Part shown: one piece after another, positions 8,942-37,473 of the stretch
Layout of the letters: every line of letters starts with the position of its first letter
Position numbering within the stretch: position 1 is the stretch's first letter
DNA from: a virus
DNA length: 51,576 nt
IMG/VR virus record: IMGVR_UViG_3300028590_000023
Coordinates: 1 to 51,576 of that record
Reading direction: 5' to 3' (one strand)
Notes under the pieces: generated by a model
What the model saw: only the letters and a program-made list of their open reading frames with translations
Database searches by the model: none
What the model was told of the DNA's origin: nothing
Position numbers and translations under genes: made by a program

Positions 8942-9283
8942 ATGAAAGTCAAGCTCAATGCATCGTCACGATTAAAAGCTGGTTGGTGGGATGACCTTTC
9001 AGATGCGGCTAAGAAGGCTTACAAGAAACTACATCCCAATAGTAAATTTGGGGGCGGTGGATCCTCAGGTGGCTCAAGCAAGAAAGAAGCTCTAGATAGG
9101 GCTCGAAAAGAGCATAAAGACGCTGCTGATGCCGTAGAGCAGATAGACAAGCGCCTGGGTGATCCTGATACCCGAACTGATGAACAGTGGGAAGAATACC
9201 ACAATGCCCTCGACAATCTGCGGAACAAGACCAAAAATCTGAAGAAACACGGTGGCATTAAACGATTCGGCGGATTTAAATAA
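8942..9283 (+). CDS. Tagged small protein with 'WWDDL...HPNSKF' motif, 113 aa
   Basis: I choose the ATG at 8942 (after CAGGGATAAGCA) over an upstream in-frame start because it gives MKVKLNASSRLKAGWW, with the tag at the terminus. Directly behind the tag, WWDDLSDAAKKAYKKLHPNS followed by KF resembles a short motif of the form W-x-x-L-[ST]-x-x-x-[QK]-x-A-Y-x-x-x-HPxSK that I associate with other phage virion-linked proteins. A Gly/Ser linker (about residues 38-48) leads to a charged helical half (RKEHKDAADAVEQIDKRLG) and a basic glycine-rich tail. Its place between two large structural genes supports a virion role. Confidence 0.65.
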   Translation: MKVKLNASSRLKAGWWDDLSDAAKKAYKKLHPNSKFGGGGSSGGSSKKEALDRARKEHKDAADAVEQIDKRLGDPDTRTDEQWEEYHNALDNLRNKTKNLKKHGGIKRFGGFK

Positions 9284-9284
9284 A

Positions 9285-10805
9285 ATGGATAACTCTACAT
9301 TTGTCTTCTTCAAGGACTACCAGACAGATACCGAGGTGGCGGCTAATATAGCGGACCTCTTAAGGTTCGGGGAGACTCTGATATCTGTAGTGCCTCAGGT
9401 AGTAAGTCCGGTAAGCACACCACCACTAGTGGTTACCCGCACTTCACCCCTGAATGATCCCGAAGTCCGTATGCTTCTTACTGGTAGCCAGGAGAACGTT
9501 AGCTACGGCTTCAAGCTTTTAATAACCACAGATGCCCGTACTTTAACGGCTTTGGTGGCTATCACTGCTACATCCAATGTTCAGGTTCCCTACACAACGG
9601 AGAACCCTAGGGCCTACGCGGATCTAGTAGATACCATCGAAGCGGGCAAGGCGGCTATTGGTACAGCTATATTCTCCTTCCCAGCTCAGGTCGATCCCTC
9701 AGGTGGATTCGTAAGCTGGGAATTCCTCGATGCTGAAGGCAGTGTTTATGCCGCAGGCAATGCGTTTGACTATACGGTGCGGTCCAACGGTGTGACCAAT
9801 ACATCTATAGCTAAAGCCGTCATCAACGTACCTTCATCGGTGCCCCCTTCCCTTGAGAACCAGAAATACCAACTGCGATACACGCTGGAGTTAAGCAGTG
9901 ACCTAGTTCAAGAGTACCCAACCCAAAGCCGCTACTATTCCTATGAGAATGTGGTAGTCGTTGGCTTGAACACTGTACCTCTGGGAACACAGCCCTCCAT
10001 AGAACTCCGAGGTGATCAGGCAGTTATGTCGATCGTGGTCGATAAGCTGTATGACAACGTATGGGTAGAACTGTATGCAGACAATACCAAATTAGGTGAG
10101 ACCCGGGTTCAGAACTTTGAGCGCGTGTCCTCTGGCTATTATTTTTCGGCGCCCTTCGATACGACAAATCTTCAGGAATCGTTGGAGTCTTATACCATCG
10201 TATGGCGCTATGGGTTCTCCAATCAACCCCATCAAGTATTCAGGGAATCCGCTGCCTTGTGGATTACCACACCGACAGTCATGCAGGCCATAGAGGACGT
10301 TAAGGCCAAGATCAACAAGGCTCGCACTACCTTGTATGGTACACCTGATCTTCTGTTCCCACCGACTACGATCATGACGTGGCTACGCCGGGCAGCCGAT
10401 AACTTCAATGGTGCTTACGGGGTATTCACAAGCTTCACCTTCACTAAGGCCAAAGGAGGTATTCGTGAATACTGGCTCATGTATGCCGAACTGTTGGCTA
10501 TAGAGAGTCAATACCTGGCTGAAGGGGAGAAGGCTTTCGATTTCCAAGGTGCAGCTATATCGCTTAATGTTGACCGTACTGGCTTCCTGGACACGGCTGC
10601 CTCAAAGATTCAGAGCCGTTTGGACAACGAGTTCAAGCCTTTCAAACAGAATCTGGTAATCAAGGGTCAAACTGGGGGCGATGGTTCAGCCGATCCTTCA
10701 AAGCTTGCACCTGGTGCTATCGGTGCCGTTGGCATTACTATCACACCGGCATCCCCTTGGGGTCCATATCGTGTGGGCTTACCTTACCCAACTATCTTTA
10801 GGTGA
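9285..10805 (+). CDS. Probable virion structural protein, 506 aa
   Basis: An ATG at 9285 begins just after the preceding stop; an upstream GTG at 9252 would overlap it, so the shorter form is preferred. The protein is dominated by beta-strands with Thr/Ser/Val-rich repeats typical of sandwich domains (residues 1-330), then a helical segment with EDVKAKINKARTTLYGTPD, and a C-terminal Gly/Pro-rich part (LAPGAIGAVGITITPASPWG). It resembles baseplate or tail-associated proteins of large myoviruses. No catalytic motif is visible. Confidence 0.6.
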   Translation: MDNSTFVFFKDYQTDTEVAANIADLLRFGETLISVVPQVVSPVSTPPLVVTRTSPLNDPEVRMLLTGSQENVSYGFKLLITTDARTLTALVAITATSNVQVPYTTENPRAYADLVDTIEAGKAAIGTAIFSFPAQVDPSGGFVSWEFLDAEGSVYAAGNAFDYTVRSNGVTNTSIAKAVINVPSSVPPSLENQKYQLRYTLELSSDLVQEYPTQSRYYSYENVVVVGLNTVPLGTQPSIELRGDQAVMSIVVDKLYDNVWVELYADNTKLGETRVQNFERVSSGYYFSAPFDTTNLQESLESYTIVWRYGFSNQPHQVFRESAALWITTPTVMQAIEDVKAKINKARTTLYGTPDLLFPPTTIMTWLRRAADNFNGAYGVFTSFTFTKAKGGIREYWLMYAELLAIESQYLAEGEKAFDFQGAAISLNVDRTGFLDTAASKIQSRLDNEFKPFKQNLVIKGQTGGDGSADPSKLAPGAIGAVGITITPASPWGPYRVGLPYPTIFR

Positions 10806-10835: not shown

Positions 10836-11480
10836 ATGATTACATTAAACTCCTCTACAAGGCTCCTAGCCAAAATTAATTCCTTAGACTATGTTCACGG
10901 GATTAACCATATTTTACAGACATCCAAACCTCCTCGTAAGAGTTCTGTGGCCCAGTCAGCAGAACGCTTTAGAAATGCTCTGTATGACTACTTGGAGGGT
11001 TTTTCCGATGTAAATAGCAAATGGGCCCCATTTCTTCTGGACATAGGTTTAACTGATAAATGCCCCTCGGTTCTTTACAGGCTGGTTTTAATGCCTATTA
11101 AGGTCAAGTTGAAACCTGGTGACACGGTTAGACTAAACTCCAAGCCATTAATGTCGGCGTCTGATAGACCTTATAATGCAGTATATGCTGGGTCTAGTTA
11201 TCATGCTGACATGGAAACGAGTTTAGATAATATGCAGCTTGCTCTAGTCTCCATTCAAAATCCAAAATGCATATTCTCTTTCGACACGCTCAAGGCTTTT
11301 GTAAAAGGGACGTCTGCTTATGACAGGATTGTGTACGAGAGGCTTGAGAAGGAACGAGAATACATAATCAGGGGCCTAAATGTTAAAGGTAGGATTATGT
11401 ATATAACCGATAACGTGGACTATATAAGGAAAGGTAAGTATCGGTCTCTGAAGAAATTCATTAAACCAGATAAGGAGTAA
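10836..11480 (+). CDS. Tagged mono-ADP-ribosyltransferase-like protein
   Basis: A 214-residue protein starting MITLNSSTRLLAK (the shared tag). The three R-S-E landmarks of arginine-directed ADP-ribosyltransferases appear in order: Arg82 in LYRLV, Ser-Ala-Ser at about 107-109 in KPLMSASD, and E173-x-E175 in EKEREYII, followed by a strand with a Gly-containing turn as in the ARTT loop region. T4 Alt and ModA are the known phage examples, modifying host RNA polymerase and other proteins; Alt is packaged in the head through an N-terminal targeting sequence. This gene has a paralogue at 15588. The enzyme assignment rests on motif order and spacing, without overall similarity. Confidence 0.7.
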   Translation: MITLNSSTRLLAKINSLDYVHGINHILQTSKPPRKSSVAQSAERFRNALYDYLEGFSDVNSKWAPFLLDIGLTDKCPSVLYRLVLMPIKVKLKPGDTVRLNSKPLMSASDRPYNAVYAGSSYHADMETSLDNMQLALVSIQNPKCIFSFDTLKAFVKGTSAYDRIVYERLEKEREYIIRGLNVKGRIMYITDNVDYIRKGKYRSLKKFIKPDKE

Positions 11481-11482
11481 TC

Positions 11483-11620
11483 ATGCTGTCCTTTCTAATC
11501 GGTGTTGTTGTAGGTTCTGCTGGCTATCGTTATCTAAGCAAGAATAATCCAGCTGTACTGGACTATTTGGTAACTAAAGCTAATTCTCTTGTTACTTGGT
11601 TTAAAGGAAAATTCAAATGA
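11483..11620 (+). CDS. Small membrane protein, 45 aa
   Basis: An ATG at 11483 after TAAGGAGTAATC gives a 45-residue protein with an N-terminal hydrophobic segment (MLSFLIGVVVGSAGYRYL, one short transmembrane helix) and a basic C-terminus. The stop overlaps the ATG of the next gene (ATGA), supporting it as real. The role could be small-protein modulation of the membrane; nothing more can be said. Confidence 0.6.
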   Translation: MLSFLIGVVVGSAGYRYLSKNNPAVLDYLVTKANSLVTWFKGKFK

Positions 11621-11964
11621 TCAAACTAAATGCAGCAACTCGTATTATGGCTTCCTCTGAAATAGAGCACGTACAAAAGATTTTGAAGCCTATTCTAGGT
11701 GACTCCCACCCTAGCCCTAGTGGCACGTCCATTACCTGGGCTAAAGGGGAATTTCCTACCCAGCTTGATGAGATCGAGGGTGGGATACGACTTACATTTA
11801 ATCCCAAGATGCGTAAAGCCTGGTTTGGGGTTGAGGGCACCAATTCTGCGGATCTATTAAAGAAATTGCGAACCAAAGCCGAAAAGATGCTGGACAAACT
11901 CAAACGTGAACCCAACTTCGAGTCGGTTAAAGACGTTCTCGAAGCCTTTTCCAAAGTACGATAA
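11617..11964 (+). CDS. Tagged protein, member A of a three-copy paralogous family
   Basis: Starts MIKLNAATRIMASS (tag). After the tag comes a helix with VQKILKPILG, strands with TSITWAKG and IRLTFNPKMRKAWFG, then a helical C-terminus with SADLLKKLRTKAEKMLDKLK. The copy at 12496 keeps the same order (LLEPILG, NIKWKP, FVFQPRAMRRAWTG, then helices ending MLEALANL), and the copy at 32555 is a more distant relative. Function unknown; the tag suggests shared virion destiny. Confidence 0.7.
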   Translation: MIKLNAATRIMASSEIEHVQKILKPILGDSHPSPSGTSITWAKGEFPTQLDEIEGGIRLTFNPKMRKAWFGVEGTNSADLLKKLRTKAEKMLDKLKREPNFESVKDVLEAFSKVR

Positions 11965-11970
11965 TGGGCA

Positions 11971-12020
11971 CTACACCGCAAAAAACTTCCCATGGTGTTG
12001 CGGTGTAGAGTATTGTTTTA
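11971..12020 (+). terminator. Hairpin, possible weak terminator
   Basis: CTACACCGCAA (11971-11981) pairs perfectly with TTGCGGTGTAG (11998-12008) around a 16-base loop and is followed by TATTGTTTT. A second small hairpin (TTTTACC with GGTAAAA) lies just downstream before the gene at 12054. The long loop makes it weaker than the other terminators here; it could instead shape mRNA stability. Confidence 0.45.
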
Positions 12021-12053
12021 CCGTATGGGTAAAAGCTATTATTTGGCGATCTT

Positions 12054-12482
12054 ATGAAGCTCAAGTCTGGCCAGCGCCTCTTGGCTGCTACAAAGTTTGT
12101 TATTAATAACAAGTATGGTTCTCTAGAATATAACTGGAAATCAGACCTTGAGGACGAAGAATATCCAGGTTACATCCCTGATGGGTACAGTAAAACGGTA
12201 CTAGAGCTTTCCTATTTAATTGCGTCAGAACTCAATAAGGGTTATGGTTCAAAGTTGATGAACACTTTTTTGAACAGTCCTCAAGCCAAGAAGGCAGAAT
12301 TGATTTTCTTGGACCCAAATCCTGACGAAGGTTTATTTGAAAACTCTGGAATACCAGAGAGGGAACAAATTAATAGGTTAATTCGCTTTTATGGGAAATT
12401 TGGATTTAGGCACGCCCCAGGATCAACTCGTATGTGGTTAGTACGTCGAGGTACTATACCTGATAATAAACTCCCTAAGTAG
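12054..12482 (+). CDS. GNAT-like acetyltransferase with tag-like N-terminus
   Basis: A 142-residue protein starting MKLKSGQRLLAAT, a diverged tag that keeps R-L-x-A. The body fits the GNAT acetyl-CoA fold: strand with TVLELSYLIASELNKGYGSK (G-x-G at the acetyl-CoA binding turn) followed by a helix, a strand with AELIFLDPNP, then INRLIRFYGKFGFRHAPGST and a final strand, the typical 'FYxKxGF' end of GNAT domains. The substrate could be a protein or a small molecule. It is preceded by two hairpins, so it may be separately controlled. Confidence 0.65.
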   Translation: MKLKSGQRLLAATKFVINNKYGSLEYNWKSDLEDEEYPGYIPDGYSKTVLELSYLIASELNKGYGSKLMNTFLNSPQAKKAELIFLDPNPDEGLFENSGIPEREQINRLIRFYGKFGFRHAPGSTRMWLVRRGTIPDNKLPK

Positions 12483-12495
12483 GATCCGCATTCAA

Positions 12496-12858
12496 ATGAA
12501 GATTAATGCAGCAGCCAGGCTTCAAGCCACCCAATCAACATCGGAGGAGCTTCTACATCTGTTAGAACCCATATTAGGAACCAATTATAAGAAATCAAAG
12601 ACCAGCTATTCCACAAACATCAAGTGGAAGCCCACACCTACTTGGAGTGCTATGCTGTCTGTAGGTAATGATGGATCTCTATACTTTGTTTTTCAGCCTC
12701 GTGCTATGCGTCGCGCATGGACTGGCGGTAATGGCCAAGACGTGACTACGGTACTGAAGTTTCTAACTCGAAACACGAAGAACATTCTTCGAGAATTTGG
12801 TAACGACTCTAAAATCGCAGACGTTAAACCTATGTTGGAGGCATTAGCTAACCTATGA
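12496..12858 (+). CDS. Tagged protein, member B of a three-copy paralogous family
   Basis: Starts MKINAAARLQATQ (tag). The 120-residue product aligns with the protein at 11617: LLEPILG, a strand with NIKWKP, the F-x-P-R-x-M-R-R-A-W block, a helix with TTVLKFLTRNTKNIL, and an ending with KPMLEALANL. The two copies are two genes apart, consistent with duplication and divergence inside the tagged island. Function unknown. Confidence 0.7.
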   Translation: MKINAAARLQATQSTSEELLHLLEPILGTNYKKSKTSYSTNIKWKPTPTWSAMLSVGNDGSLYFVFQPRAMRRAWTGGNGQDVTTVLKFLTRNTKNILREFGNDSKIADVKPMLEALANL

Positions 12859-13121
12859 AACTCAACGCAGGCATACGCCTTAAAGCCGATGACTGGAGCT
12901 CTGACGTAGAGACCAAGAACCACACACCAGAAGGTTTGTTCACCAAATCAGCTAATGAAATAGCGCGAGGCATAAAGAAGGAACATGGTTCTGACTTCAA
13001 GGGCGCTATGAATGCACTGACCTTTTACTATAACCGGGCTGGCGATAATTTGTCAGAAGCCGATAAGCGGAAAGGTGAGCATGCTAAAGAAGCCCTACGT
13101 AAACTCTACGGTAAATCATGA
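12855..13121 (+). CDS. Tagged DUF3175-like protein, 88 aa
   Basis: Starts MKLNAGIRLKADDW (tag), then a segment matching DUF3175: FTKSANEIARGIKKEH, GAMNALTFYYNRAGDNLSEA and AKEALRKLYGKS, corresponding to the family's 'AMSMLxFYINRAGxNL ... AKxELRxxFG' core. Stand-alone DUF3175 proteins are small bacterial proteins of unknown function. The ATG overlaps the previous stop. Capture of a bacterial small domain behind the tag is a reasonable inference. Confidence 0.7.
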   Translation: MKLNAGIRLKADDWSSDVETKNHTPEGLFTKSANEIARGIKKEHGSDFKGAMNALTFYYNRAGDNLSEADKRKGEHAKEALRKLYGKS

Positions 13122-14123: not shown

Positions 14124-14134
14124 AGGGGTTGATT

Positions 14135-15283
14135 GTGCTAATCCTAGGGTCAGCTAATAGGCTTCAGGCAGCTAAGGCTGACGTTAAAGCCGCTGAAACA
14201 TTCTTGACGGAACTGGGCTTTAGTGGCCTAAGATTCAAAAGCAGTAAGGACGACATCATCCAGTTTGCCTACAAGGCTTATGATAAAGCGCAGGTTACCA
14301 AGCACTTAGGTGCCCCTAAGGCTGCTTCTACAGGCATTCGCTATAGATTCGGTAACCAAGGGGTTGTGGCTATATTCCCGAATCGGGTAGTCCTAAAGAA
14401 TAGCAAACGCACCAAACCAGCTAAGCCTGAGCCTAAAACAGGTACGATGAATGACGATGATAAAGTTCCACTGGTCCACATCACTGAGGCACTGCATAAA
14501 GAATACCAGAGGGCCCAGACTAATCCTAGCGCCCGACTGAAGTTCTGTACTGATCTTTGGAAGTATTTCAATACTACCAAGTTTGGGTCTAAACTTGGGA
14601 TGCCTAACATACGGTTACTCAAGAATGTCGCTGGCACCTCATTTAGAACACGTGGGTACTGGAATCCGTCTAACCGTAAATTAGCCGTTAGCCCTCGGTT
14701 GTTCAATGCCAGCCAGGAGTTCTTCGTCGAGACTTTCCTGCATGAGATGTGTCACCAAGCGGTTAGTGAGATCGATAGGAAGATAGAGTATGAGAATCAA
14801 AGCCATGGTCCGCTATGGGCGTCGTGGATGCGTAAAGTAGGCTTGAATCCCTTACGATTTGATCCCGTAGGGAACGCGACCTACATGACAGACAAAGAGA
14901 GGGACCACTACAACAAAACTCGTGACCAATATAAAGATGCTCTTTACGAGCTAATTAGGTTGGGCCTGAAGCAAACTACACCTGCGGAGCACAAGGCTGT
15001 AACCTTCGTAAACGATGGGCAGCTTATCGATGGTGTATGTGTATGTCCAGCACCGGGTAAAAAGTGGGCTGTGCTGCCTGTTGACACCATAAACTCTTAT
15101 ACACAGGGCTCCCTAAAGTGGTTCAAGATTGGCACCGGGCACCTGTACCAAGCCAGACCTACGTCCATATACTTCACCAAATACGATAGACTTGCGAATC
15201 TCATTAAGAACTTCTATGAGCAAAAGGAAAACGAAAGGTTCTTGAGACGGGAAAAGAAACATAGGCAGGAATGGGGTTATTAA
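14135..15283 (+). CDS. Tagged SprT-like zinc metallopeptidase
   Basis: I prefer the GTG at 14135 over the TTG at 14129 because AAGGGG is six bases upstream of it. The 382-residue product starts MLILGSANRLQAAK (tag variant). Residues 20-110 form a separate N-terminal region with a basic Pro/Lys linker. A SprT-like domain follows: KLAVSPRLF then FVETFLHEMCHQAVSEID (HExxH at about 203-207) and SHGPLWASWMRKVGLNP, supplying the third ligand His at about 224. SprT/Spartan proteins cleave DNA-bound proteins; phage versions are little studied. The C-terminus has no recognisable domain. Confidence 0.75.
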   Translation: MLILGSANRLQAAKADVKAAETFLTELGFSGLRFKSSKDDIIQFAYKAYDKAQVTKHLGAPKAASTGIRYRFGNQGVVAIFPNRVVLKNSKRTKPAKPEPKTGTMNDDDKVPLVHITEALHKEYQRAQTNPSARLKFCTDLWKYFNTTKFGSKLGMPNIRLLKNVAGTSFRTRGYWNPSNRKLAVSPRLFNASQEFFVETFLHEMCHQAVSEIDRKIEYENQSHGPLWASWMRKVGLNPLRFDPVGNATYMTDKERDHYNKTRDQYKDALYELIRLGLKQTTPAEHKAVTFVNDGQLIDGVCVCPAPGKKWAVLPVDTINSYTQGSLKWFKIGTGHLYQARPTSIYFTKYDRLANLIKNFYEQKENERFLRREKKHRQEWGY

Positions 15284-15585
15284 TGAAACGCTTTAATGCT
15301 CGTATAAAAACGAATGGCTATGGGGTGGCTAAAATCAAACGGGCCACCTACAACTCCAATACGGGCTTCTCCAAAACCAGCGACTGGTGGTCATTAAGGG
15401 CTGAGGTGTGGAAGCGTGATGGTGGTCACTGCGTCCCCTGTGGGAAAGCCGGTAAGCGTGTGAAAGGCAAGGACGTTCATCATATTATACCTCTAGGTAG
15501 AGGTGGAACTACTACCAAAGCCAATTTGATTACAGTGTGTGAAGACTGCCATGATAAACGCCATCCAGGGCACCCTAAGAGGTAA
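15283..15585 (+). CDS. HNH endonuclease
   Basis: A 100-residue HNH protein. The ATG overlaps the stop of the peptidase gene (TAATG). The N-terminus MKRFNARIKTNGYG is basic and only faintly resembles the tag. The HNH core covers residues 44-95: WKRDGGHCVPCGKAGKR with the first Cys pair (C50, C53), DVHHIIPLGRGG (catalytic His66/67), N81 in KANLITVCEDCHDKRH, and the second Cys pair with His90/His94. It is the minimal zinc-braced HNH domain, as in McrA-like and homing nucleases. It may cut host DNA or act as a mobile endonuclease. Confidence 0.85.
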   Translation: MKRFNARIKTNGYGVAKIKRATYNSNTGFSKTSDWWSLRAEVWKRDGGHCVPCGKAGKRVKGKDVHHIIPLGRGGTTTKANLITVCEDCHDKRHPGHPKR

Positions 15586-15587
15586 AA

Positions 15588-16103
15588 ATGATCCCGCTTA
15601 ATGCCGTCACTAGACTACAACGCCCACTTGAGTTTGTTGAGGAACTTTTCAATTACTTAGAAGGTGATAAAGTCTCAGACCAATGGGTTGCTGAGGTAAC
15701 TAAACGCCGTGATAAATGCCCAACCATACTGTATCGAATGGTGTTACTTTCAGAGAAGACCAAGCTAGACATTGGCAAGGAAATTAAGCTCAAGTCTAAA
15801 CCCATTATATCGGCTTCAGATAACCGTATGAATGCTTTATACGCTGGATGTTCTTATCATCATGACCATGGTACTAGGTTAACGGGAAAGCAAATAGCGC
15901 TCGTTAGTATTAAAAATCCACATTGCTTTATGTCTTATAGAGAGCTAAAGAAACTCGTTAAGCAGAATTCCTATGTTGTAAATCGTTTGAATAAAGAGCG
16001 GGAGTATATAATTGACGGTCACAATATTAAGGGCACGGTTTTGTCGATAAAGAGTATACACCTTATTAGCGATGAGCTTTATAAAGGTTTCAAACTGATA
16101 TGA
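15588..16103 (+). CDS. Second tagged mono-ADP-ribosyltransferase-like protein
   Basis: A 171-residue paralogue of the protein at 10836, starting MIPLNAVTRLQRP (tag). The R-S-E landmarks are preserved: Arg50 in ILYRMVLL, Ser75-Ala-Ser77 in KPIISASDNR, and E137-x-E139 in NKEREYIIDG. Blocks such as NALYAGCSYHHD and QIALVSIKNPHC align with NAVYAGSSYHAD and QLALVSIQNPKC in the other copy. The N-terminal region between tag and domain is shorter. Two such enzymes recall the multiple ADP-ribosyltransferases of T4 (Alt, ModA, ModB), suggesting different targets. Confidence 0.7.
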   Translation: MIPLNAVTRLQRPLEFVEELFNYLEGDKVSDQWVAEVTKRRDKCPTILYRMVLLSEKTKLDIGKEIKLKSKPIISASDNRMNALYAGCSYHHDHGTRLTGKQIALVSIKNPHCFMSYRELKKLVKQNSYVVNRLNKEREYIIDGHNIKGTVLSIKSIHLISDELYKGFKLI

Positions 16104-16312
16104 TTAAGTTAGACGCCGCTGCACGAATATCTCTGTCGAAGATGTCCAAGCCAGAGAAGCTCAAGTTTTATAATGACAAGTTGAATTGGAAGAAGACGCA
16201 ATTGATAAAGCTTTCCAAAGAAACTGCGCCTGTAACGTACAAGTTAATCCAGCAGCAGATCAACAATATCAAAGACAGACTTACCAAACTTAGACAACCG
16301 AAGAAGGTGTGA
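16100..16312 (+). CDS. Tagged small basic helical protein, 70 aa
   Basis: Starts MIKLDAAARISLSKM (tag variant with Asp for Asn). The rest is one or two Lys-rich helices (KPEKLKFYNDKLNWKKTQLI; QQQINNIKDRLTKLRQPKKV). The ATG overlaps the preceding stop. High positive charge would suit binding to packaged DNA, which is inference. Confidence 0.65.
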   Translation: MIKLDAAARISLSKMSKPEKLKFYNDKLNWKKTQLIKLSKETAPVTYKLIQQQINNIKDRLTKLRQPKKV

Positions 16313-16314
16313 CC

Positions 16315-16680
16315 ATGAAAGATCAGCTACGAAACTTTATAACGCTCTTCCTCCAACTTAATGCGGAACCCGCTGACTTCCAAGTCCATGCACTGGCCGA
16401 AGCTCTTGGTTGCGATAAAGAGACTCTGGAAGGCGTCATCTATGCTATGCTCGGGCGTGAGGTCAACAACGAAGTTACGGCTTCTGAGGAAGAGGTTCTG
16501 GAAGACGTTTATCCGCCTGACCAGATATCCGTGAACGATATAACACTTAATGACAGCGCACCTACAGCCCCGGATCCGGACTATACTTCTGATGACGGCG
16601 TGGACGCCCTGGATCAAGGTATTGGCGATGCTACAGGTGATCTTCTGATTGACGATGGTGTGCCGGACCGAAGCCTATGA
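16315..16680 (+). CDS. Small acidic protein, 121 aa
   Basis: I choose the ATG at 16315 over the GTG at 16309. The N-terminal half is helical with DFQVHALAEALGCDKETLEG and VIYAML, a block I associate with small head-gene-neighbouring proteins of other phages. The C-terminal half is acidic and disordered (PTAPDPDYTSDDGVDALDQG). It lies between the tagged island and an unknown 234-residue protein. Confidence 0.55.
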   Translation: MKDQLRNFITLFLQLNAEPADFQVHALAEALGCDKETLEGVIYAMLGREVNNEVTASEEEVLEDVYPPDQISVNDITLNDSAPTAPDPDYTSDDGVDALDQGIGDATGDLLIDDGVPDRSL

Positions 16681-17381
16681 AAGACTATTTCCTGTCCAGT
16701 TTAGGCATCTTGGATACCGATCAAGTGCGGTCACCAACTAAAGATGCCTTCCCGTTGGCTTTCAATGTCAACAACCACAGGGTGTGGGATGCAGTTATTC
16801 AGGGCTTTAAGCAGACCGATAATCCAGCAGCCGATTGGTCCGCTGCCATCCACTTGTATATAGAACGTTGCGTTGGTCAAGGTCTTTACCCCTTTTCGAA
16901 CGTGCACCAGAGCTCTAATGATTCAATACTTAGGGAGCTCAATGATGGCCGTAAAGCCGTAGTCAAGTTCATGAACCTTAGCCGTATTCTTCAGCTTATC
17001 AATCTGAGCTCCACGACTAGGCAAGTGAAGATGACCAACACGGGATTTTGTCTTAAAGTGAGTGGCAAGGCAAAGCTGAAGGATCCATCGTTTCCCCAGT
17101 GGTTGACTAAGATACCCATGCCTGGCTTTCAGATCCTGAAGGTTGATGAGCGCTATATAAAGAACCTTAGCGGTACGACCACTATAATCGCATATAACGA
17201 GGGCGCTAACTTGCCAGATCGATGGCACCTAGGCTACGAGATTATCGTCAATAGGTTCCCCGATATACCAGGCAACCAACTACCATCTAGAGCGGAGTTA
17301 GAGAAGTTCATTCTGACCACCCTCTGGATGCCCATCTTGAAAGCCCATAGACCACAAGGCTTTCACCACAGACTCATATGA
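16677..17381 (+). CDS. Unknown protein, 234 aa, probable virion component
   Basis: A mixed alpha/beta protein (AFNVNNHRVWDAVIQGFKQT; FCLKVSGKAKLKDPSFPQWL; LGYEIIVNRFPDIPGNQLPS) with no enzymatic motif. It ends just before the strong terminator at 17387 and its ATG overlaps the previous stop. Structural role is inferred only from neighbourhood. Confidence 0.5.
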   Translation: MKDYFLSSLGILDTDQVRSPTKDAFPLAFNVNNHRVWDAVIQGFKQTDNPAADWSAAIHLYIERCVGQGLYPFSNVHQSSNDSILRELNDGRKAVVKFMNLSRILQLINLSSTTRQVKMTNTGFCLKVSGKAKLKDPSFPQWLTKIPMPGFQILKVDERYIKNLSGTTTIIAYNEGANLPDRWHLGYEIIVNRFPDIPGNQLPSRAELEKFILTTLWMPILKAHRPQGFHHRLI

Positions 17382-17386
17382 TCACC

Positions 17387-17426
17387 AAGGGGCGATAATC
17401 GCATGATTATCGCCCCTTTCCTTTTT
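17387..17426 (+). terminator. Strong rho-independent terminator
   Basis: AAGGGGCGATAAT pairs perfectly with ATTATCGCCCCTT across a six-base CGCATG loop, followed by a T-rich tract. It ends the transcription unit starting at 6443 and directly precedes another AATTTTAT promoter-like site. Confidence 0.9.
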
Positions 17427-17430
17427 CTGC

Positions 17431-17441
17431 AATTTTATGCG
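17431..17441 (+). promoter_or_regulatory. Candidate phage promoter, AATTTTATGCG
   Basis: AATTTTATGCG follows the terminator at 17387 by five bases and precedes the giant helicase gene. The nearest in-frame ATG (17437) lies inside the motif, which favours the downstream start at 17464. Same core as at 6443 and 47949. Confidence 0.55.
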
Positions 17442-17463
17442 GAATATACCACCGAGGACGATT

Positions 17464-20400
17464 ATGACACTTCGTAAGACTACCAATCTGGTCATTCCGC
17501 CAGAGCTTAAACTGCCGCGTAAGGAGCTTAAATCAGGCTTCATGTATCTGTATAACAAAGGCTATTCGTCCCTCCCACCTTCGTTCTTGAACAAGCTGTG
17601 GGTATCCACGATATTTCCTAGCATTGCGGAGCAGCCTTCTTTTGGCAAGAACCGTAGGAATTTGAGGGCCCTTGTTGCTCGGCTTGTAAAGGTTATACCT
17701 GCCGGGTTGATGAAGCTCAAGAAGGTGAACGATCCCGCAGATCCTCATTTTGTGGTTTCCATTCCGGTATTTAAGTTGTTCTTAGACCCAGAGCGTATGG
17801 GTCAATACTTAGCGGACTTGGTAGATAAAATAGAGGCCCCTGCAGATGGCTCACCTTGGAACCCCTATGCCGGCAGCAAGGTCAACGAGGTATCTGGGGG
17901 TCTAGTACCTGCTGCCCAGGCTATCCTGAACATCAAGAACCTGGATGCTAAGGCTCGGGCAGCGCTGTCCGAGACCTTTCTGGGTTTCCGCCTTGTACCC
18001 AAAGACGTGGATACTCTGGTCTATTTGGACTTCAAGATCTCTAAGCCCATTGCAGAGCAGTTAACCACCTCTTATTGGATTGAGATTCGAAACATTGATC
18101 TCTACCCGCTGCTCCTCCAATGGACTACAACTTATTTCGGCTTCACGGGCCCCGCACCTTTATCCGCATTTCCGGTATCCAAGATCGCCCGTACTTTGCC
18201 CTCGCTTCAGAACAACCAGATTCGAGTCAACGAACACTCCCTGTCTATTGGACCCGACGGTACTGCTTATTGGCTGCCCAAGGAATTGGACAATACAGGT
18301 CGTTATGAGGATCTCTATAGCCAAGTAGGTGATAAGGGTGACGATAGCTTCCAATTGGTAGACGTGACAGAAGCTGATTCCTTATCCATAGATGGCGATG
18401 AAGGGCATATAACGAAGTTACCTCGTAACATACCGGTCTTAATGGATTGGCAGAACAACAAGTATAGCTACACAACCTCTACTGGTATGTTGAAGGTTCA
18501 GGACTTGGCTCGCTTTAAGATAGCCGACTCCTCGCATGTCGTCAACCTGTTAGACAAGCCTTCGAGTATCAAGACCCTCAAGACCATTGTCAATATGGCT
18601 GACTCATCTGGGTTGAGTACAACCCCTAGCCAATACTTTGTGGCAGAAGAGACCCAACAGTTGATCAAAGAGAATCCAAATGCCGCTCCAACTTTGGTGA
18701 AATCACCTAACATGCTCGACTACATGGTAGACGCCCTAAACTTCTACCGTATGGAAGAGGGCATGCATCCTGATGATCCTGTGCCTTGGAAAGACTTCAA
18801 TCTAGGAGGCCCTGTTTCCCTGAGACCTATTGCGAGGTTCATGCAAGCCGCTTTGCCTGCAATACTGGATCACCTTGATGCGGTCAATACTAAATATGCG
18901 GTATCGACAGTCAGCACACATTTGGCTATAGTAACGATGGTTGCCAAGTACGGCGCTGAGAACTATGGAGACACACTCCTAAAGAGTAATTCGATTCGGG
19001 AGGCTGCTCAGAACCAAGGCGTCGACCCTGATTGGGAACCACCAGCCATACCGTTGTTGTCCGATAAGATCGGCATGTTGCCACACCAGAAGAAGGTCAG
19101 AAACTTGCTGAAAGGTAGCCCTGACTTCGCTATTCTGCCTGTGCAGGCGGGTGGTGGTAAGTCGGTATTGTCTATCACAGACGTTCTGTACGAGATCAAG
19201 AACGCCACTAATGCGCCGTACCTTATCCTGTGTCCGCCGCACCTGGTAGCCCAGTACGTGAAGGAGATAGTGTTCTTCACCAATGGTAAGCTTAATGTGG
19301 TATCGATCAACTCCTATGCTATTGACCGCAATGGCTTTCCAAGGCTCACCAAGTTGTTGGAAGGTGCGCCCCGCAATACTGTAGTGGTCTGCGACTATGA
19401 CGTTCTGCGGTACAGGCAGGATGAGGTGTGCTATGGCACGACCCCGATAAAGGTCTATCCAGTTATCGAATTCTTGCGGCAGTTCTCCTTTGGCTACGCA
19501 ATGCTGGACGAATCGCAGTCGGTAAAGAATGATTCGGCTCGTACTCGTGCTTGTATGGCACTTATTGCTGACATACCGAAGAAGAGGTTGGCTTCTGGTA
19601 CAATGGCCCACGATTCACCTTCCGATTTGGCTCTCCAAATAGCGATGCTTGACCCAACTCTGTTTGGTGATCGTAAGGAGTTTAATGAGCGCTTTGGTGC
19701 CGAAGTTAAGGGTGATCGTGTTATCAAGTGGAAGCCAGGGGCTCAGCTTGAGATCATGCGAATGATCAAGAGCCGGATTGTAGTCGCAGGCGCTATGCGT
19801 AAAGAATGGGCCGCGTTGCTTCCTAAAGCACATGAGCAATTCCACAAGGTAGAGCTTACAGAAGCCCAATATAATGTGTACCAATCGATCTTGACCGAGA
19901 CGTTGGATCGCATTAGAGAAGACGCCAAGAATAATAAAGGGTTGGCCAAGCTTCTGGCACCTGTAGTCGGTGCTAAACCGGATGAAGATGCCGAAGACGC
20001 ACCGTTGGCTGATTCTGAAGATCAAGCCGACACGATGGATGAATTTGAAGACGAAGACCTGGCAGCGTTGCTGACGCCCTACTTGGCTCGTCTCGAACAG
20101 TTCATTACGGCGCCTGCAAAAGACCCGTTGGGAGATAAGCTACTGAAGGGCGTAGATCGGATGTCACCTAAGGTAGCTAAGATCGTGGAGCGCGTTAAGT
20201 TGCACCTGGATCAGAATCTCCCGGGTAAAGTACTGGTTTTCACGAACTATGTGGAATCTGCCGAAGAGATCTTTGACGCCTTCCCTCCGGAACTGAAATC
20301 ACAGGGCTTGCTGTATGTAGCGTCTCAGAAGGTAGAGATTGGTGCGGCCTTCGAGCGTGACCCCCAGAAGAAGTGGATGGTCGGTGTTGAGCAATCAATG

Positions 20401-21978
20401 AACACTGGCTTGAACTTGCAGTTCGTGGCCCGTTTGGTTCGCGTTGAAACCGTCTGGAACCCAGGTACACTGGAACAAGGTAACAGCCGGGTCAATCGTC
20501 CTGAACTCAAGAAGACGGATATTCGTGGCGAAATTTACTACGACTGGGTGGTAGCGGATAGAACAATCGATATCACCAAGATCAGCCGCTTGATATCCAA
20601 GATTGTGGCCATAGCTAAGTTCGAAAACACGGACAACGTAGCCTACGAGAGCATACCGGATGTTCCTGTTATCAAGATGACGCTGGACAGCATCGAGAGC
20701 ATGAACTCGTGGTCAGAGAATCTCAAGGAATATGCGGATGCTTACCGCGAGTACAAGACGGTACAAGCAGAAGAGTATGCTGAATACCGAGAGAAACACG
20801 GTGAACTCAAACTAGAGAAATTGACCATAGCTGAAACACCGAAAGATGCCAAGCTTATGGGTACGGTACCTTATACCCCGGGCCTTGAAATCTACGGTGC
20901 GGATGAAATGGGTCTGGTACGTCTAGACGAGCACTTGAGGCAGAATACGTTCGAGGACGGTGAAGAAGGTGAGGAAGAGGACGAAGATAAGGCTTCTAGC
21001 TCTGACCTAGTTGACGCGATAATAGGCCAGAGGGTTCATACAGAGTTTGGTGACGGCGTGATCAAGAGCGTTATGATGACCAATCGAATGGTCAACGTAA
21101 GTCTTGATTCTGGCTACCTAATTCGTGTACGGCTAAGCTCTGCGTTCTTGATCACAAGGCCTACTACATCGACTAAGGATATCAGGAATCAGTTACTGAA
21201 GTCTGTAGGTGAATTGGAGCTTACTGCACCACTGGACGTACCGGCACAGAAGTTCCGGATCGATAATGCGGCAGCCCGCAAGGCTCTTAAAGATCAGATC
21301 CAGAAGGAGAAGGAAGCTCAGAAGAAGGCTAAAGAGAAACTTGCTTCGTTGTCTGTGGAGCTCACATTCAACATATCGAATGGATTCTTGGGCATCACTT
21401 ACTTCGAGAACGAAGACAACCCTGAGGCGGCTAATGCTTTGCAAGCCCTAGGTTTCAGACCAACCGAACAGTTTGCATATGCGTTGGTTAAGACACCACG
21501 ACAACTGCTCCAGCAATTTAATGTTTGGAAAGACAAAGGCTATACCTTAGATAAGGCATTCCACGGTAATGTTTCTGAAGCTTTCCGGGACCTGTATAAG
21601 TTGATGGAAAAGGGTAGGTTGAAATCAAGGAACGTGGACTTCAACTTCTCTACAAAGAACGAGCTGAAGAACTTCTACAGAATGGAAGTGAAGCCATCAA
21701 CAGACGATAAGGCCATCAAACCTTATCCGATGATTGAAGATGGGCAGGCTTATATAGTGTTGCCCCTGCGTGGTCAACCTGCGTCTAGGAAAGCAATACA
21801 GGTTAGGGCACCTGGAGTTCGTTGGCAGATGTCCACACCGTCTTTAGTCTATTATGGTCTTGGTCTAGCAGCTACTGGTAAGATGATTCAGAAGATTATG
21901 GAGAATGGTATTACCATAAGTAATCTGAAAGAAGTTAAGTCTGACTTTAAGAAGCTGCGTAAGGTCTCAACTCGTTAA
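17464..21978 (+). CDS. Giant SNF2-type superfamily 2 helicase/ATPase, 1504 aa
   Basis: The start at 17464 is preferred because a GAGGA site lies 9 bases upstream. The first 540 residues have no recognisable domain. The ATPase core follows: LPHQKKVRNLL, PVQAGGGKSVLSI (Walker A, about 560-568), ILCPPHLVAQYVKEI (Ia), MLDESQSVKN (DESQ box, about 680), ASGTMAHDSPSDL (III). Lobe 2 has VLVFTNYVESAEEI, GVEQSMNTGLNLQF (about 974) and EQGNSRVNRP (VI), the SNF2 arrangement. A charged acidic linker splits the lobes (about 845-870), and a coiled coil (KDQIQKEKEAQKKAKEK) lies near 1275. It sits between virion genes and away from the replication block, which recalls the packaged DarB helicase of P1 that protects DNA from restriction; that role is inference. 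Confidence 0.85.
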   Translation: MTLRKTTNLVIPPELKLPRKELKSGFMYLYNKGYSSLPPSFLNKLWVSTIFPSIAEQPSFGKNRRNLRALVARLVKVIPAGLMKLKKVNDPADPHFVVSIPVFKLFLDPERMGQYLADLVDKIEAPADGSPWNPYAGSKVNEVSGGLVPAAQAILNIKNLDAKARAALSETFLGFRLVPKDVDTLVYLDFKISKPIAEQLTTSYWIEIRNIDLYPLLLQWTTTYFGFTGPAPLSAFPVSKIARTLPSLQNNQIRVNEHSLSIGPDGTAYWLPKELDNTGRYEDLYSQVGDKGDDSFQLVDVTEADSLSIDGDEGHITKLPRNIPVLMDWQNNKYSYTTSTGMLKVQDLARFKIADSSHVVNLLDKPSSIKTLKTIVNMADSSGLSTTPSQYFVAEETQQLIKENPNAAPTLVKSPNMLDYMVDALNFYRMEEGMHPDDPVPWKDFNLGGPVSLRPIARFMQAALPAILDHLDAVNTKYAVSTVSTHLAIVTMVAKYGAENYGDTLLKSNSIREAAQNQGVDPDWEPPAIPLLSDKIGMLPHQKKVRNLLKGSPDFAILPVQAGGGKSVLSITDVLYEIKNATNAPYLILCPPHLVAQYVKEIVFFTNGKLNVVSINSYAIDRNGFPRLTKLLEGAPRNTVVVCDYDVLRYRQDEVCYGTTPIKVYPVIEFLRQFSFGYAMLDESQSVKNDSARTRACMALIADIPKKRLASGTMAHDSPSDLALQIAMLDPTLFGDRKEFNERFGAEVKGDRVIKWKPGAQLEIMRMIKSRIVVAGAMRKEWAALLPKAHEQFHKVELTEAQYNVYQSILTETLDRIREDAKNNKGLAKLLAPVVGAKPDEDAEDAPLADSEDQADTMDEFEDEDLAALLTPYLARLEQFITAPAKDPLGDKLLKGVDRMSPKVAKIVERVKLHLDQNLPGKVLVFTNYVESAEEIFDAFPPELKSQGLLYVASQKVEIGAAFERDPQKKWMVGVEQSMNTGLNLQFVARLVRVETVWNPGTLEQGNSRVNRPELKKTDIRGEIYYDWVVADRTIDITKISRLISKIVAIAKFENTDNVAYESIPDVPVIKMTLDSIESMNSWSENLKEYADAYREYKTVQAEEYAEYREKHGELKLEKLTIAETPKDAKLMGTVPYTPGLEIYGADEMGLVRLDEHLRQNTFEDGEEGEEEDEDKASSSDLVDAIIGQRVHTEFGDGVIKSVMMTNRMVNVSLDSGYLIRVRLSSAFLITRPTTSTKDIRNQLLKSVGELELTAPLDVPAQKFRIDNAAARKALKDQIQKEKEAQKKAKEKLASLSVELTFNISNGFLGITYFENEDNPEAANALQALGFRPTEQFAYALVKTPRQLLQQFNVWKDKGYTLDKAFHGNVSEAFRDLYKLMEKGRLKSRNVDFNFSTKNELKNFYRMEVKPSTDDKAIKPYPMIEDGQAYIVLPLRGQPASRKAIQVRAPGVRWQMSTPSLVYYGLGLAATGKMIQKIMENGITISNLKEVKSDFKKLRKVSTR

Positions 21979-21993
21979 TCAAAGGAGAAATAA

Positions 21994-22329
21994 ATGTACG
22001 ATAATATTAAAACCGCGATGACCAATGCAGGTTATGCTGTATCCGAAGGAAGCGACTGGACTCCTGCAGACCAGGTTCTGTACCGGGAATATTGCTACTT
22101 CCGTTTGGGTATCCCTGACATTGGGGCCATCGCTTTGATCTCCTATCCGGCATATTTCCAAGAGCAATACCCGACAGCCTATTCTACCTATGAGGCTGAT
22201 CTGGGTGAAGAAGAGCCTGAGGAGCCGGAAGAGGAACCAGAGGAAGAAGAGACGCCTCCTGAAGAGGAGCCCGAAACACCCCCAGAAGATGAAACTCCAC
22301 CGGACGAAGAAGAGCCGTCTAACCCCTAA
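21994..22329 (+). CDS. Small protein with Glu/Pro-rich C-terminal tail, 111 aa
   Basis: A good AAAGGAGAAATAA site precedes the ATG. Residues 1-65 form a compact helical part (MYDNIKTAMTNAGYAVSEGS; YPTAYSTYEAD). Residues 70-111 are nearly all Glu, Pro, Thr and Asp (EEPEEEPEEEETPPEEEPET), an extended acidic tail. Such tails are usually flexible and can mask basic surfaces. Its place before the head genes suggests an assembly or virion role; function unknown. Confidence 0.6.
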   Translation: MYDNIKTAMTNAGYAVSEGSDWTPADQVLYREYCYFRLGIPDIGAIALISYPAYFQEQYPTAYSTYEADLGEEEPEEPEEEPEEEETPPEEEPETPPEDETPPDEEEPSNP

Positions 22330-22338
22330 GGAGCTTAA

Positions 22339-22731
22339 ATGTCGGCCATAACGATTATTGGTAATCATGGGCCAGCATATAGGAACGGTGTCACCCCTTC
22401 GGGGGTGGCCGTTCCAAATGTTGCTGATGTTGGGATGGGCTGGACTGCTGTAATAGCTAATGATGCAGGCCAGTCTTTAATCGCCCTCAACTCCTTGGTA
22501 CGAGGTGACATAAACGTAGGTGTCCATTTTCAAGGTACGGCTGGCGTGAAGGTCTCTTTCACTTTAGCCAACACTGCCTCTGCTCTAAGTTCTAATCCTG
22601 ATGTACAGGACTCGGTTACGTGGAGTAACGAAATAACCATGGGGGCAGACATTGTACCCGCGGAGGTATTGTTCACGGCCTTGAAAGTGGTGTTCGACGG
22701 CCCCGGTGAGTTGTATATAGCAGTTCGATAA
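22339..22731 (+). CDS. Small beta-rich protein, possible head decoration, 130 aa
   Basis: The ATG follows AAGGAGCTTAA. The product is rich in small residues and strands (GWTAVIANDAGQSLIALNSL; VSFTLANTASALSSNPDVQD; GADIVPAEVLFTALKVVFDG). Its layout resembles small virion surface or decoration proteins, but no family is certain. Codons 15-26 contain a remarkable 13-bp hairpin described separately. Confidence 0.5.
   Translation: MSAITIIGNHGPAYRNGVTPSGVAVPNVADVGMGWTAVIANDAGQSLIALNSLVRGDINVGVHFQGTAGVKVSFTLANTASALSSNPDVQDSVTWSNEITMGADIVPAEVLFTALKVVFDGPGELYIAVR
22382..22415. other. Long intragenic hairpin with TTCG loop
   Basis: GGAACGG (22382-22388) pairs with CCGTTCC (22409-22415), and CACCCC (22392-22397) pairs with GGGGTG (22402-22407) around a TTCG tetraloop, with a small internal asymmetry. 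This 13-bp structure lies 40 bases inside the gene at 22339. A UUCG loop on a C-G closing pair is exceptionally stable RNA. Confidence 0.7.
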
Positions 22732-22743
22732 ATAGGGTGCTCT

Positions 22744-23469
22744 ATGTTTTTCGATTCAGAACCTAAGAAGCCAAACATCATAGTGGCCAACAATGGGATA
22801 TCTGTAATTGATGCCGAAAAAGACGGTTCTCGATTGCAGACTTTGGACTACCCTACTTGGCTCCCTTTCGCAGCTAAACTCTACAATATCAGCTCCAACA
22901 TAGAGGACTTCTTGTTGGTCACCACACCTATCTGCCCATCTGATATCCCCAATCGGAATGGTGTGGCCTTCCCCCTTGCAGAGCTCACCAAGTTTCAACC
23001 GCCGCCTGTATCCCGCATGACCTACAAAGCCTGGAAAGGCTGCCCGGTTCATAGGGAACATAAAGCCGATGTTCATGAAGATGCCTATGGTGTTATTCTT
23101 GACGCTTCCTTGCACAAGGTAACCGGATACGGCAATGGTAAGCTGTGGAAGGTAATGGGGCTGCTGGCTATCGACAAGTATAAGTACCCAGAGATGGCAC
23201 GTAGGGTTCGAGAAGGCGATGTTAATACCTACTCGATGGGAGCTCTAGCGGACTTCTTTACTTGCTCATATTGTGGTCAGGAGATAACTAAAGCCAGCAA
23301 TTGTGGTCACGTTCATCATAAGAACGAGATAGATTGGCGTGAAGTTATAGGACCTGATGGTAGAAACCACATAGCGTTTCGCAATGCCCATAATGTGAAT
23401 CCTGTGGAATGCTCTATCGTTGAAAGTCCTGCGTGGACTACCGCGCTGTCTGATCAGATATTAGGCTAG
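22744..23469 (+). CDS. Prohead maturation protease with inserted zinc-finger-like loop
   Basis: A 241-residue protein whose position just upstream of the scaffold and capsid genes, and whose motifs, fit the herpesvirus-like prohead protease group (T4 gp21-like). Candidate catalytic residues are His103/His106 in CPVHREHKADVHEDAYGVIL and Ser164 in NTYSMGALAD; the closing strand VECSIVESPAWTTA is the usual C-terminal block of these proteases. Between them a loop FTCSYCGQ ... NCGHVHH (about residues 172-192) supplies three Cys and several His, an unusual putative zinc-binding insertion. It would process the scaffold and capsid proteins and perhaps tagged cargo. Confidence 0.75.
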   Translation: MFFDSEPKKPNIIVANNGISVIDAEKDGSRLQTLDYPTWLPFAAKLYNISSNIEDFLLVTTPICPSDIPNRNGVAFPLAELTKFQPPPVSRMTYKAWKGCPVHREHKADVHEDAYGVILDASLHKVTGYGNGKLWKVMGLLAIDKYKYPEMARRVREGDVNTYSMGALADFFTCSYCGQEITKASNCGHVHHKNEIDWREVIGPDGRNHIAFRNAHNVNPVECSIVESPAWTTALSDQILG

Positions 23470-25949: not shown

Positions 25950-27026
25950 ATGACCAAACTCAAAGTACGTGCAGCTCGCACTCCAGTTGTTGCTCAAGAC
26001 TATCGTTTCAATGACGGCAGTCTGGCCATCGGCGCCAAGGGCGAATTGAATGCATCGTCCAAGAAGGAACTTCTGCAACGTCAAGTGCAGTTCTTGCAAG
26101 CCGCTTCTAACGGTCAAGTCGTTACTGCTGCTCAAGCAACTGCAATGGAAAATCAGTCCAAGATCAACCGTGAGTTGGTTCAGGCTGCTTTCAATGACGC
26201 AGCAGCACACCGTATCCTGGGTGAGCGCGTTGCTGAGTCCCTCTACATGACTGCCAATCGTGAAGGCTTCATGCGTAAGTATTTGGCCAAGATCGACGTT
26301 GCGCAAGGCACCATCCCGCGCTTCCCGGTCCGCGCCAAGAACGTGACTGCTGTATGGTCCACTTCGCCGACTCGCGTTCAATCGCAGATCACTCGTGACA
26401 AATGGCTGTACCCGCCGGAACTGTCCATCATCGCTCGTCCGTTCATTACCCAGAACGAACTGAATCAAAGCGCTGGTGACGTTCTGCAAGAGAAGTTCGT
26501 TGAAGCTACTGAAGCCGTTATGGTTTCGGAAGACCGTCTCTGGTACAACCAAGCTAACCAACTGGTTGGCGTTGACAACAACCTGGCAATCGTCAGCGGT
26601 CAGCTCACACCGTACACACTGATGCAAGTCGTGGTCAACGTTACTCGTTGGGGCCTGAAGACACCGCACGTCCTGATCGCAGCTGACCTGTATGCTGATA
26701 TCATCGGTAACTCTGAGTTCTACGAAGCAATCGATCCGGTTGCTCGCCACGAGTTGCTGCTGACTGGCGAACTGGCTGTTATGTACGGCATGACCATCAC
26801 TTCCGATGCCTACCGTCATCCGGAACACAAGGTTCTGAACCAAGGCGAATTCTTCGTGATCGCTGACAAGCTGAATCACGGTGGTTACTCTGATCGCGGC
26901 GGCCTGCAATCGAGCCCGACCGATATCACTGTCGAACAGATCCCAGGCAAGGGTTGGGTCATCCACGAAGAGATCGCTATCTCCATCGCCAACAGCCGTT
27001 CCATCGCTAAGGGCGTACGCCTCTAA
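25950..27026 (+). CDS. Major capsid protein
   Basis: A 358-residue protein with strong AAGGAGAG ribosome-binding site and extreme codon bias. Order of elements fits the HK97 fold: an N-terminal charged arm (KKELLQRQVQFLQAASNG, about 38-55), a helix region with FNDAAAHRILGERVAESLYM, the strand FPVRAKNVTAVWSTSPTRVQ, a long spine-helix region (about 175-200), the P-domain with PHVLIAADLYADIIG, and a late LNQGEFFVIADKLNHGGYSD. Its place after protease, scaffold and decoration genes and before tail genes supports the call. The N-terminal ~35 residues may be removed by the prohead protease; the cleavage site cannot be fixed. Confidence 0.8.
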   Translation: MTKLKVRAARTPVVAQDYRFNDGSLAIGAKGELNASSKKELLQRQVQFLQAASNGQVVTAAQATAMENQSKINRELVQAAFNDAAAHRILGERVAESLYMTANREGFMRKYLAKIDVAQGTIPRFPVRAKNVTAVWSTSPTRVQSQITRDKWLYPPELSIIARPFITQNELNQSAGDVLQEKFVEATEAVMVSEDRLWYNQANQLVGVDNNLAIVSGQLTPYTLMQVVVNVTRWGLKTPHVLIAADLYADIIGNSEFYEAIDPVARHELLLTGELAVMYGMTITSDAYRHPEHKVLNQGEFFVIADKLNHGGYSDRGGLQSSPTDITVEQIPGKGWVIHEEIAISIANSRSIAKGVRL

Positions 27027-37249: not shown

Positions 37250-37473
37250 ACTACTTCGATCCCTGTTATTACCTCATTGGTCTTTATAGATTTGTCTTGG
37301 CTAACCTTTAGCTCGGCCGCTATGTTCCCCTTTACGGACATGCCCATCAACTGCTGAACTTGAGCAGCCGTAAGCCCCTCACTTACGAGCCTCACATGTA
37401 TGCCACAGAGCTCCGCATTCAAGACCAATACTGTTTCCCCTAGACCTTCGGTAACTAATAGCAGGCTCATCAT
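37243..37473 (-). CDS. Hypothetical protein, 76 aa
   Basis: I choose the ATG at 37473 (MMSLLLVTEGLGETV) with GGGAG upstream. The product is mostly beta with a central helix (EGLTAAQVQQLMGMSVKGNI) and a C-terminal strand. Its stop overlaps the start of the next gene. Function unknown; co-transcribed with replication genes. Confidence 0.55.
   Translation of the reverse strand: MMSLLLVTEGLGETVLVLNAELCGIHVRLVSEGLTAAQVQQLMGMSVKGNIAAELKVSQDKSIKTNEVITGIEVVW

Follow-up and report, generated by a model that had tools for sequence, protein, structure and literature searches.

The stretch of viral DNA analysed here, IMG/VR record IMGVR_UViG_3300028590_000023 (51,576 nucleotides, hereafter the window), carries on its plus strand, at 17464-21978, a gene for a 1504-residue SNF2-type double-stranded DNA (dsDNA) translocase. 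The best explanation of the evidence as a whole, which we hold at slightly better than even confidence, is that this protein is a methyltransferase-free motor that is packaged in the phage head and acts on incoming DNA. We favour this reading because its homolog in the jumbo phage PaBG, gp202, is present in virions, because 50 of the 80 loci compared keep the gene linked to that for the head-tail connector, and because in the window's clade the gene has its own terminator before it and leads into head genes with a gap of 15 base pairs (bp). Complete SNF2 motifs, a predicted fold of the Rad54/CSB/Mot1/ZorD type, apparent core status in a phage lineage and the presence of a separate UvsW-like helicase argue in the same direction, as do two precedents for packaged SNF2 proteins, P1 DarB (PMC9024508) and the DarB-like gp69 of phage JC1 (PMC9144972).

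The gene encodes an intact SNF2 motor

The open frame is intact from 17437 to 21978, and an ATG at 17437 would give a protein of 1513 residues. We preferred the start at 17464 because a GAGG Shine-Dalgarno sequence lies just 5′ of it, the ATG at 17437 having none, and because close homologs share this start residue (M-x-LRPTTNLVxP). The resulting protein matched Pfam SNF2-rel_dom (PF00176) with an E value of 1.3e-16. Its parts are as follows.

17464-21978, plus strand: SNF2-type dsDNA translocase, 1504 residues (Pfam PF00176, PHROG 21391/62, homologs, Shine-Dalgarno sequence)
17464-19077, plus strand: N-terminal family-specific region, residues 1-538 (AlphaFold; no Pfam or PDB match)
19078-20703, plus strand: SNF2 two-lobed ATPase core, residues 539-1080 (motifs; VIA; Foldseek E ~1e-19)
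19150-19164, plus strand: motif I, GGGKS, residue 563
19507-19518, plus strand: motif II, DESQ, residue 682
Residue 711, plus strand: motif III, SGT
Residue 982, plus strand: motif V, GLNLQ
20476-20502, plus strand: motif VI, QxxxRxxRP, residue 1005
21031-21153, plus strand: five-stranded barrel, probably SH3/Tudor-like, residues 1190-1230, containing VHTEFGDG (AlphaFold, strands 659-699 of the model)
21361-21951, plus strand: C-terminal alpha/beta region, residues 1300-1496, without known family (AlphaFold; no Pfam or PDB match)

The motifs are complete and in order, with Walker A and B intact in a two-lobed predicted fold. Motifs III, V and VI were present in all 79 long family members that were scanned, motif I in 75 and motif II in 76; inteins or alternative residues may explain the members lacking a standard motif I or II. 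A motif scan of the 1504-residue protein found no [DNS]PP[YFW] methyltransferase motif, and Pfam gave no methyltransferase match. Judged by its motifs and predicted fold, the protein is an intact SNF2 motor, and its sequence suggests ATP-driven translocation along dsDNA. An earlier note on this DNA had described an SNF2 protein of 1504 residues with complete ATPase motifs and no methyltransferase motif, and this description proved correct.

A homolog is present in PaBG virions

The published virion proteome of PaBG was obtained from CsCl-purified particles by matrix-assisted laser desorption/ionization of Coomassie-stained bands, and band 1 is gp202, listed at 221,162 Da as a "RuvB helicase-like protein" (PMC7412058, Table 1). 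We found that PaBG_00202 is an SNF2 homolog whose computed mass is 221,159 Da. The gene number agrees as well, and gp191 of PaBG passed the same mass check (35,272 Da). Judged by its sequence, the "RuvB helicase-like" gp202 is an SNF2-family member, so that the published packaging evidence carries the wrong label. One member of the family has been reported in virions, abundant enough to give a stained band. None of the 14 PaBG bands is labelled as a polymerase or other replication enzyme, and no UvsW is listed (PMC7412058).

BLASTP aligned gp202 with the window protein at an E value of 1e-35 and about 24-27% identity. The SNF2 core and the C-terminal region can be aligned, and genes for an HNH endonuclease and for a protein like that of the window's gene X, described below, lie upstream. 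In contrast, gp202 is 1969 residues long, has a longer N-terminus and is followed by a DNA polymerase gene. Because this homolog was found in purified virions, packaging in the window's phage is likely, and we consider it probable from homology that the SNF2 protein is virion-associated there. The earlier proposal that the protein is packaged therefore gains support from CsCl-purified PaBG particles (PMC7412058).

The SNF2 gene belongs to a jumbo-phage lineage

The 1504-residue protein matched PHROG 21391 (E 3.4e-120) and PHROG 62 (E 3.8e-86) over the SNF2 core and C-terminal region, and by sequence it belongs to the large jumbo-phage helicase family that these represent. With proteins of the annotated phages BcepSaruman, BcepSauron and Motura it shares 41% identity over its full length, and with those of Vibrio GR7B, Xanthomonas PhiXhv and Pseudomonas putida jumbo phages about 28%. 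More remote relatives occur in Lu11, PaBG and jumbo phages of Erwinia, Dickeya and Yersinia. The full-length homologs of BcepSaruman (gp88), BcepSauron, Motura (gp182) and an RSL1-like locus (L024), at 41-44% identity, have been annotated simply as SNF2-like or DNA helicase; BcepSaruman and Motura share the window's order of HNH, X, SNF2 and head protease genes.

In IMG/VR, which holds both uncultivated viruses and deposited genomes, 72 loci had a family member. Among public phages, the helicase was found in 93 records and the lineage-specific head-tail connector in 86, with equal genus counts for the main genera except Rhizobium (helicase only). The SNF2 gene therefore behaves as part of the core gene set of the jumbo-phage lineage that includes RSL1, Motura, BcepSaruman and PaBG. 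Its near-universal co-occurrence with the connector points to a function more general than optional counter-defence.

Within the family, three relatives (L008, at about 11310-12890, L040 and L063), among them the Yersinia phage fHe-Yen9-02, have an intein-like insertion inside Walker A (GGGK / C...HN / T), and the members in L045 and L048 have other large insertions. A second contig of 24.8 kb, L011 (IMGVR_UViG_3300038441_000347), comes from the same virus as the window and is 100% identical to it over the SNF2 gene.

The SNF2 gene lies at the junction of virion and replication genes

Gene order was compared across 80 loci, the window included and some of them redundant, with the connector and downstream genes scored within each fetched stretch. 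The relevant features of the window are listed here.

9252-10805, plus strand: head-tail connector protein (phrog_17327, E 2.7e-69), upstream of the SNF2 gene in 50 of the 80 loci
15271-15585, plus strand: HNH endonuclease, conserved cluster member (phrog_589, E 1.7e-19), 51 loci
16309-16680, plus strand: acidic 123-residue protein of the same conserved cluster, homologs in 23 loci
16677-17381, plus strand: gene X, candidate partner gene, 234 residues, without known family; homologs in 37 loci, nearly all immediately upstream of the SNF2 gene
17387-17418, plus strand: intrinsic terminator separating the SNF2 gene from its upstream neighbour (14-bp perfect stem, loop of 4, T-rich tail)
21994-22731, plus strand: two small proteins immediately downstream of the SNF2 gene (15-bp gap), the second kept in 25 loci
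22744-23469, plus strand: head maturation protease (phrog_18299, E 8.3e-78)
25950-27026, plus strand: major head protein (phrog_2522, E 3.9e-92)
37470-39008, minus strand: separate UvsW-like SF2 helicase in the replication block (phrog_16, E 9e-45)

The order connector, HNH, X and SNF2 on one strand recurs across the 80 loci. In the window, the SNF2 gene is followed by the two small genes and then by those for the head protease, a scaffold-like protein, a virion protein and the major head protein, and the replication block occupies the minus strand from 34.6 kb onward. The earlier note was thus right that the gene is far from the replication block and is followed by head genes. Head genes lie downstream in 29 of the 80 loci, which form the window's clade, and a DNA polymerase gene in 41, comprising PaBG and its relatives; the two were never both found downstream within one fetched stretch. 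Linkage to the connector is kept even in the loci with the polymerase downstream. The SNF2 gene therefore sits at the junction of virion and replication genes.

Because the polymerase follows in so many loci, a virion role inferred from position alone is weak. The earlier inference from location is weakened to that extent: head genes do follow in the window, but the polymerase does so in about half of the loci, and the terminator boundary was kept in only 2 of the 24 distinct loci tested. A terminator-promoter boundary had been proposed upstream of the gene. Its terminator part stands, as the stem at 17387-17418 has 14 perfect pairs and a T-rich tail and is among just three perfect stems of at least 10 bp in the window. 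The promoter part does not, as no sigma-70 promoter match was found on the plus strand in the gap before the SNF2 gene. The T4-type late promoter TATAAATA had two matches in the window, neither of them near the SNF2 gene. With the boundary mostly not conserved in relatives, we dropped the terminator as a family-wide feature.

Gene X accompanies the SNF2 gene very faithfully, and its product may be a partner of the SNF2 protein. Its PaBG-type counterpart was recognised by profile comparison (95.9% probability, E 5.9e-9). A weak Foldseek match to an uncharacterised 227-residue PaBG protein (E 0.051) gave rise to the idea that X (16677) is a paralog of the helicase N-terminus; this idea was dropped when profile comparison gave 0.2%. 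That PaBG protein is possibly the counterpart of X. Elsewhere in the window, the tail block ends with a gene for a 257-residue protein (33305-34078); in PaBG-type phages its homologs are encoded upstream of the SNF2 gene, at a distance of about 2.5 kb.

Predicted structure of the SNF2 protein

AlphaFold models of residues 1-543 and 532-1504 were both confident, with predicted local distance difference test (pLDDT) values of 86.6 and 84.3, respectively. The predicted motor core superposed by VIA on ZorD, INO80, Mot1, SsoRad54 and CSB with Z scores of 19.6-22.5. The nearest solved sequence was that of SsoRad54 (E 4e-27, 98 bits); RapA, at 32 bits, was rejected as the closest relative of the core. 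The two-lobed SNF2 core is common to SsoRad54, Rad54, CSB/Rad26, Mot1 and ZorD by profile and predicted structure, whereas these are cellular or host-defence proteins with other flanking domains.

Residues 1-540 gave no Pfam match and no PDB sequence match, and the model of residues 1-543 had no PDB fold match at E ≤ 0.001 and a best VIA Z score of 3.8. Among viral models, this region matched only family members, apart from the weak PaBG match at E 0.051. The first 540 residues, called unexplained in the earlier note, thus have a confidently predicted fold that matches no solved one and belong to no known family. We rejected a methyltransferase hidden in this region, to which Pfam, PDB sequences and Foldseek gave no pointer, although the fold search, run on the whole 543-residue model, could miss a small known domain. 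Within the same region the first 17 or so residues (LRxTTNLVxPxxLxL) are strongly conserved among close relatives; mean identity over the first 20 is 0.55, against a domain average of 0.37. Residues 1-10 are predicted to be flexible (pLDDT 58). A conserved yet flexible N-terminus of this kind would be compatible with a short peptide for docking or packaging.

The five-stranded barrel after the motor contains VHTEFGDG, one of the two motifs chosen as most conserved. Weak Pfam matches of single members to several SH3/Tudor-like families, including PcrA_UvrD_tudor in two relatives, together with the model, suggest that it is probably SH3/Tudor-like. A HARP-like or DUF5710-like C-terminus was suspected by eye and was rejected, having no Pfam or PDB support.

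Other proteins of the window share an N-terminal tag

An N-terminal tag resembling M(K/I)xLNAATRLxA was found on 14 of the 78 open reading frames of the window (about 14-16), whereas a similar pattern gave 1.5 matches in shuffled sequence. The core motif occurs in the window exclusively at N-termini. The tagged proteins start at the following positions.

2350, 2709, 8942, 10836, 11617, 12054, 12496 and 13223, plus strand
13581, 14135, 15588, 16100, 30470, 32174, 32555 and 32934, plus strand

These proteins are small and otherwise unrelated, and include NUDIX, GNAT-like and SprT-like members. The tag recurs in relatives from the clade with head genes downstream (L018, L043, L025, L026, L027, L036, L016 and Motura, L002) and was not found in PaBG-type loci. 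It resembles a signal for capsid targeting, or for the prohead protease, on proteins that are packaged together, for which the capsid-targeting signal of T4 internal proteins is a precedent (PMC9024508).

The SprT-like metalloprotease (14129-15283, Pfam E 2.1e-11) carries the tag and also lies beside the SNF2 cluster in Motura (gp178); a metallopeptidase domain is found as well in DdrB of the P1 Dar system. The tagged proteins at 10836-11480 and 15588-16103 look like paralogs of one another. By eye they have KEREYII in common, which might point to an ART-like protein of the T4 Alt kind, with no Pfam support. The acidic protein at 16309-16680 has a tag-like RL motif in or near its C-terminal end in L016, L019, L023, L026, L027, L031, L034, L036 and L045.

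Proposed role and alternative explanations

For the window's phage we infer that the protein is synthesised late, packaged, ejected and active on incoming DNA. The SNF2 protein would be made late and placed in the phage head, and it would probably be delivered into the cell together with the DNA. Once inside, it would track along double-stranded phage DNA at the expense of ATP and strip or remodel bound proteins (host nucleoid proteins, stalled host RNA polymerase, restriction complexes); alternatively, the motor might help to draw the DNA in. The infecting genome would thereby become usable. Targeting would fall to the protein's own N-terminal domain, SH3/Tudor-like barrel and C-terminal region, with no methyltransferase involved. 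That the protein is delivered and acts as a translocase on entering DNA has in our view an even chance of being true. A more ambitious version, in which an essential start-of-infection motor is packaged throughout the lineage, processes or pulls in the genome and uses a novel N-terminal docking or loading domain, is doubtful. No account of a virion SNF2 protein acting in this way is known to us.

Several observations weigh against a packaged translocase. The SNF2 protein has no tag: its N-terminus reads MTLRKTTNLV and the motif is absent throughout the helicase, so that the protein, if packaged, must use another route. The virion evidence comes from one study, of a relative about 24-27% identical that its authors labelled differently. 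Finally, the polymerase downstream in 41 of the 80 loci would suit a replication role equally well. The protein could then work inside the cell as a translocase in fork restart or recombination, its place near head genes in this clade being a matter of chance and its carriage in PaBG particles passive. Rad54-type proteins are the best solved relatives, and jumbo-phage Snf2 helicases have been suggested to serve recombination in place of UvsW (PMC7824862). However, a separate UvsW-like helicase is encoded both in the window and in PaBG (gp210), and the connector linkage extends to the polymerase-downstream clade. Moreover, gp202 was visible by Coomassie staining while no polymerase or UvsW appeared among the bands (PMC7412058). 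We therefore regard this explanation as unlikely. T4 UvsW-like helicases are likewise SF2 proteins, and the window's own phrog_16 member is the different gene at 37470-39008; assignment of the SNF2 protein itself to the UvsW type was rejected, its phrog_16 match being weak (E 9.9e-6), confined to the C-lobe and not its best.

DarB invites a different explanation, in which a packaged SNF2 protein acts in cis to shield the injected DNA against type I restriction. The enzymes of this restriction type are themselves translocases, and a DNA-tracking motor could displace them. Like the window protein, DarB is a myophage SNF2 protein of very large size; it lies in the P1 head and is believed to be delivered, and a reporter that carries just the first 30 residues of DarB is directed to the capsid (PMC9024508). 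The gp69 protein of JC1, a Bcep22-like phage, is comparable by description, being huge (4515 residues versus 1504), named DarB-like and detected in virions by mass spectrometry (PMC9144972). The SNF2 core, the large size and the PaBG homolog in virions all suit such a function. In contrast to the window protein, DarB has a fused N6 methyltransferase (N6_Mtase and Eco57I Pfam matches) and falls in other PHROGs, and BLASTP found no similarity between the two. With nothing in common beyond the general SNF2 core, we rejected kinship. For a packaged SNF2 protein, DarB is the proper precedent in function, not a relative, and the earlier comparison with it stands in the first sense and fails in the second. 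Lineage-wide core behaviour is also unlike that of an accessory counter-defence gene, and a specifically anti-restriction protein of the DarB type seems distinctly unlikely.

The protein, whether or not it is packaged, might instead remodel transcription in the manner of RapA or CSB, using the barrel to act on host RNA polymerase. CSB/Rad26 are top Foldseek matches, and the barrel follows the motor, with two relatives weakly matching PcrA_UvrD_tudor. However, RapA scores well below Rad54 in sequence, and the barrel is weakly assigned and of a type that serves many roles, making this quite improbable.

The proposed packaged translocase is not a new kind of protein, as the family is annotated and one virion detection has been published under another name. 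What is new is the recognition of a methyltransferase-free, core and probably packaged SNF2 motor in a jumbo-phage lineage. The known packaged case, DarB, has a fused methyltransferase and an anti-restriction role, whereas the family described here is large, core and without a methyltransferase. The cultured phages BcepSaruman, Motura, RSL1 and PaBG allow direct testing. If the packaged-motor reading is true, the use of a DNA-tracking motor would be a general feature of the start of infection in some jumbo phages.

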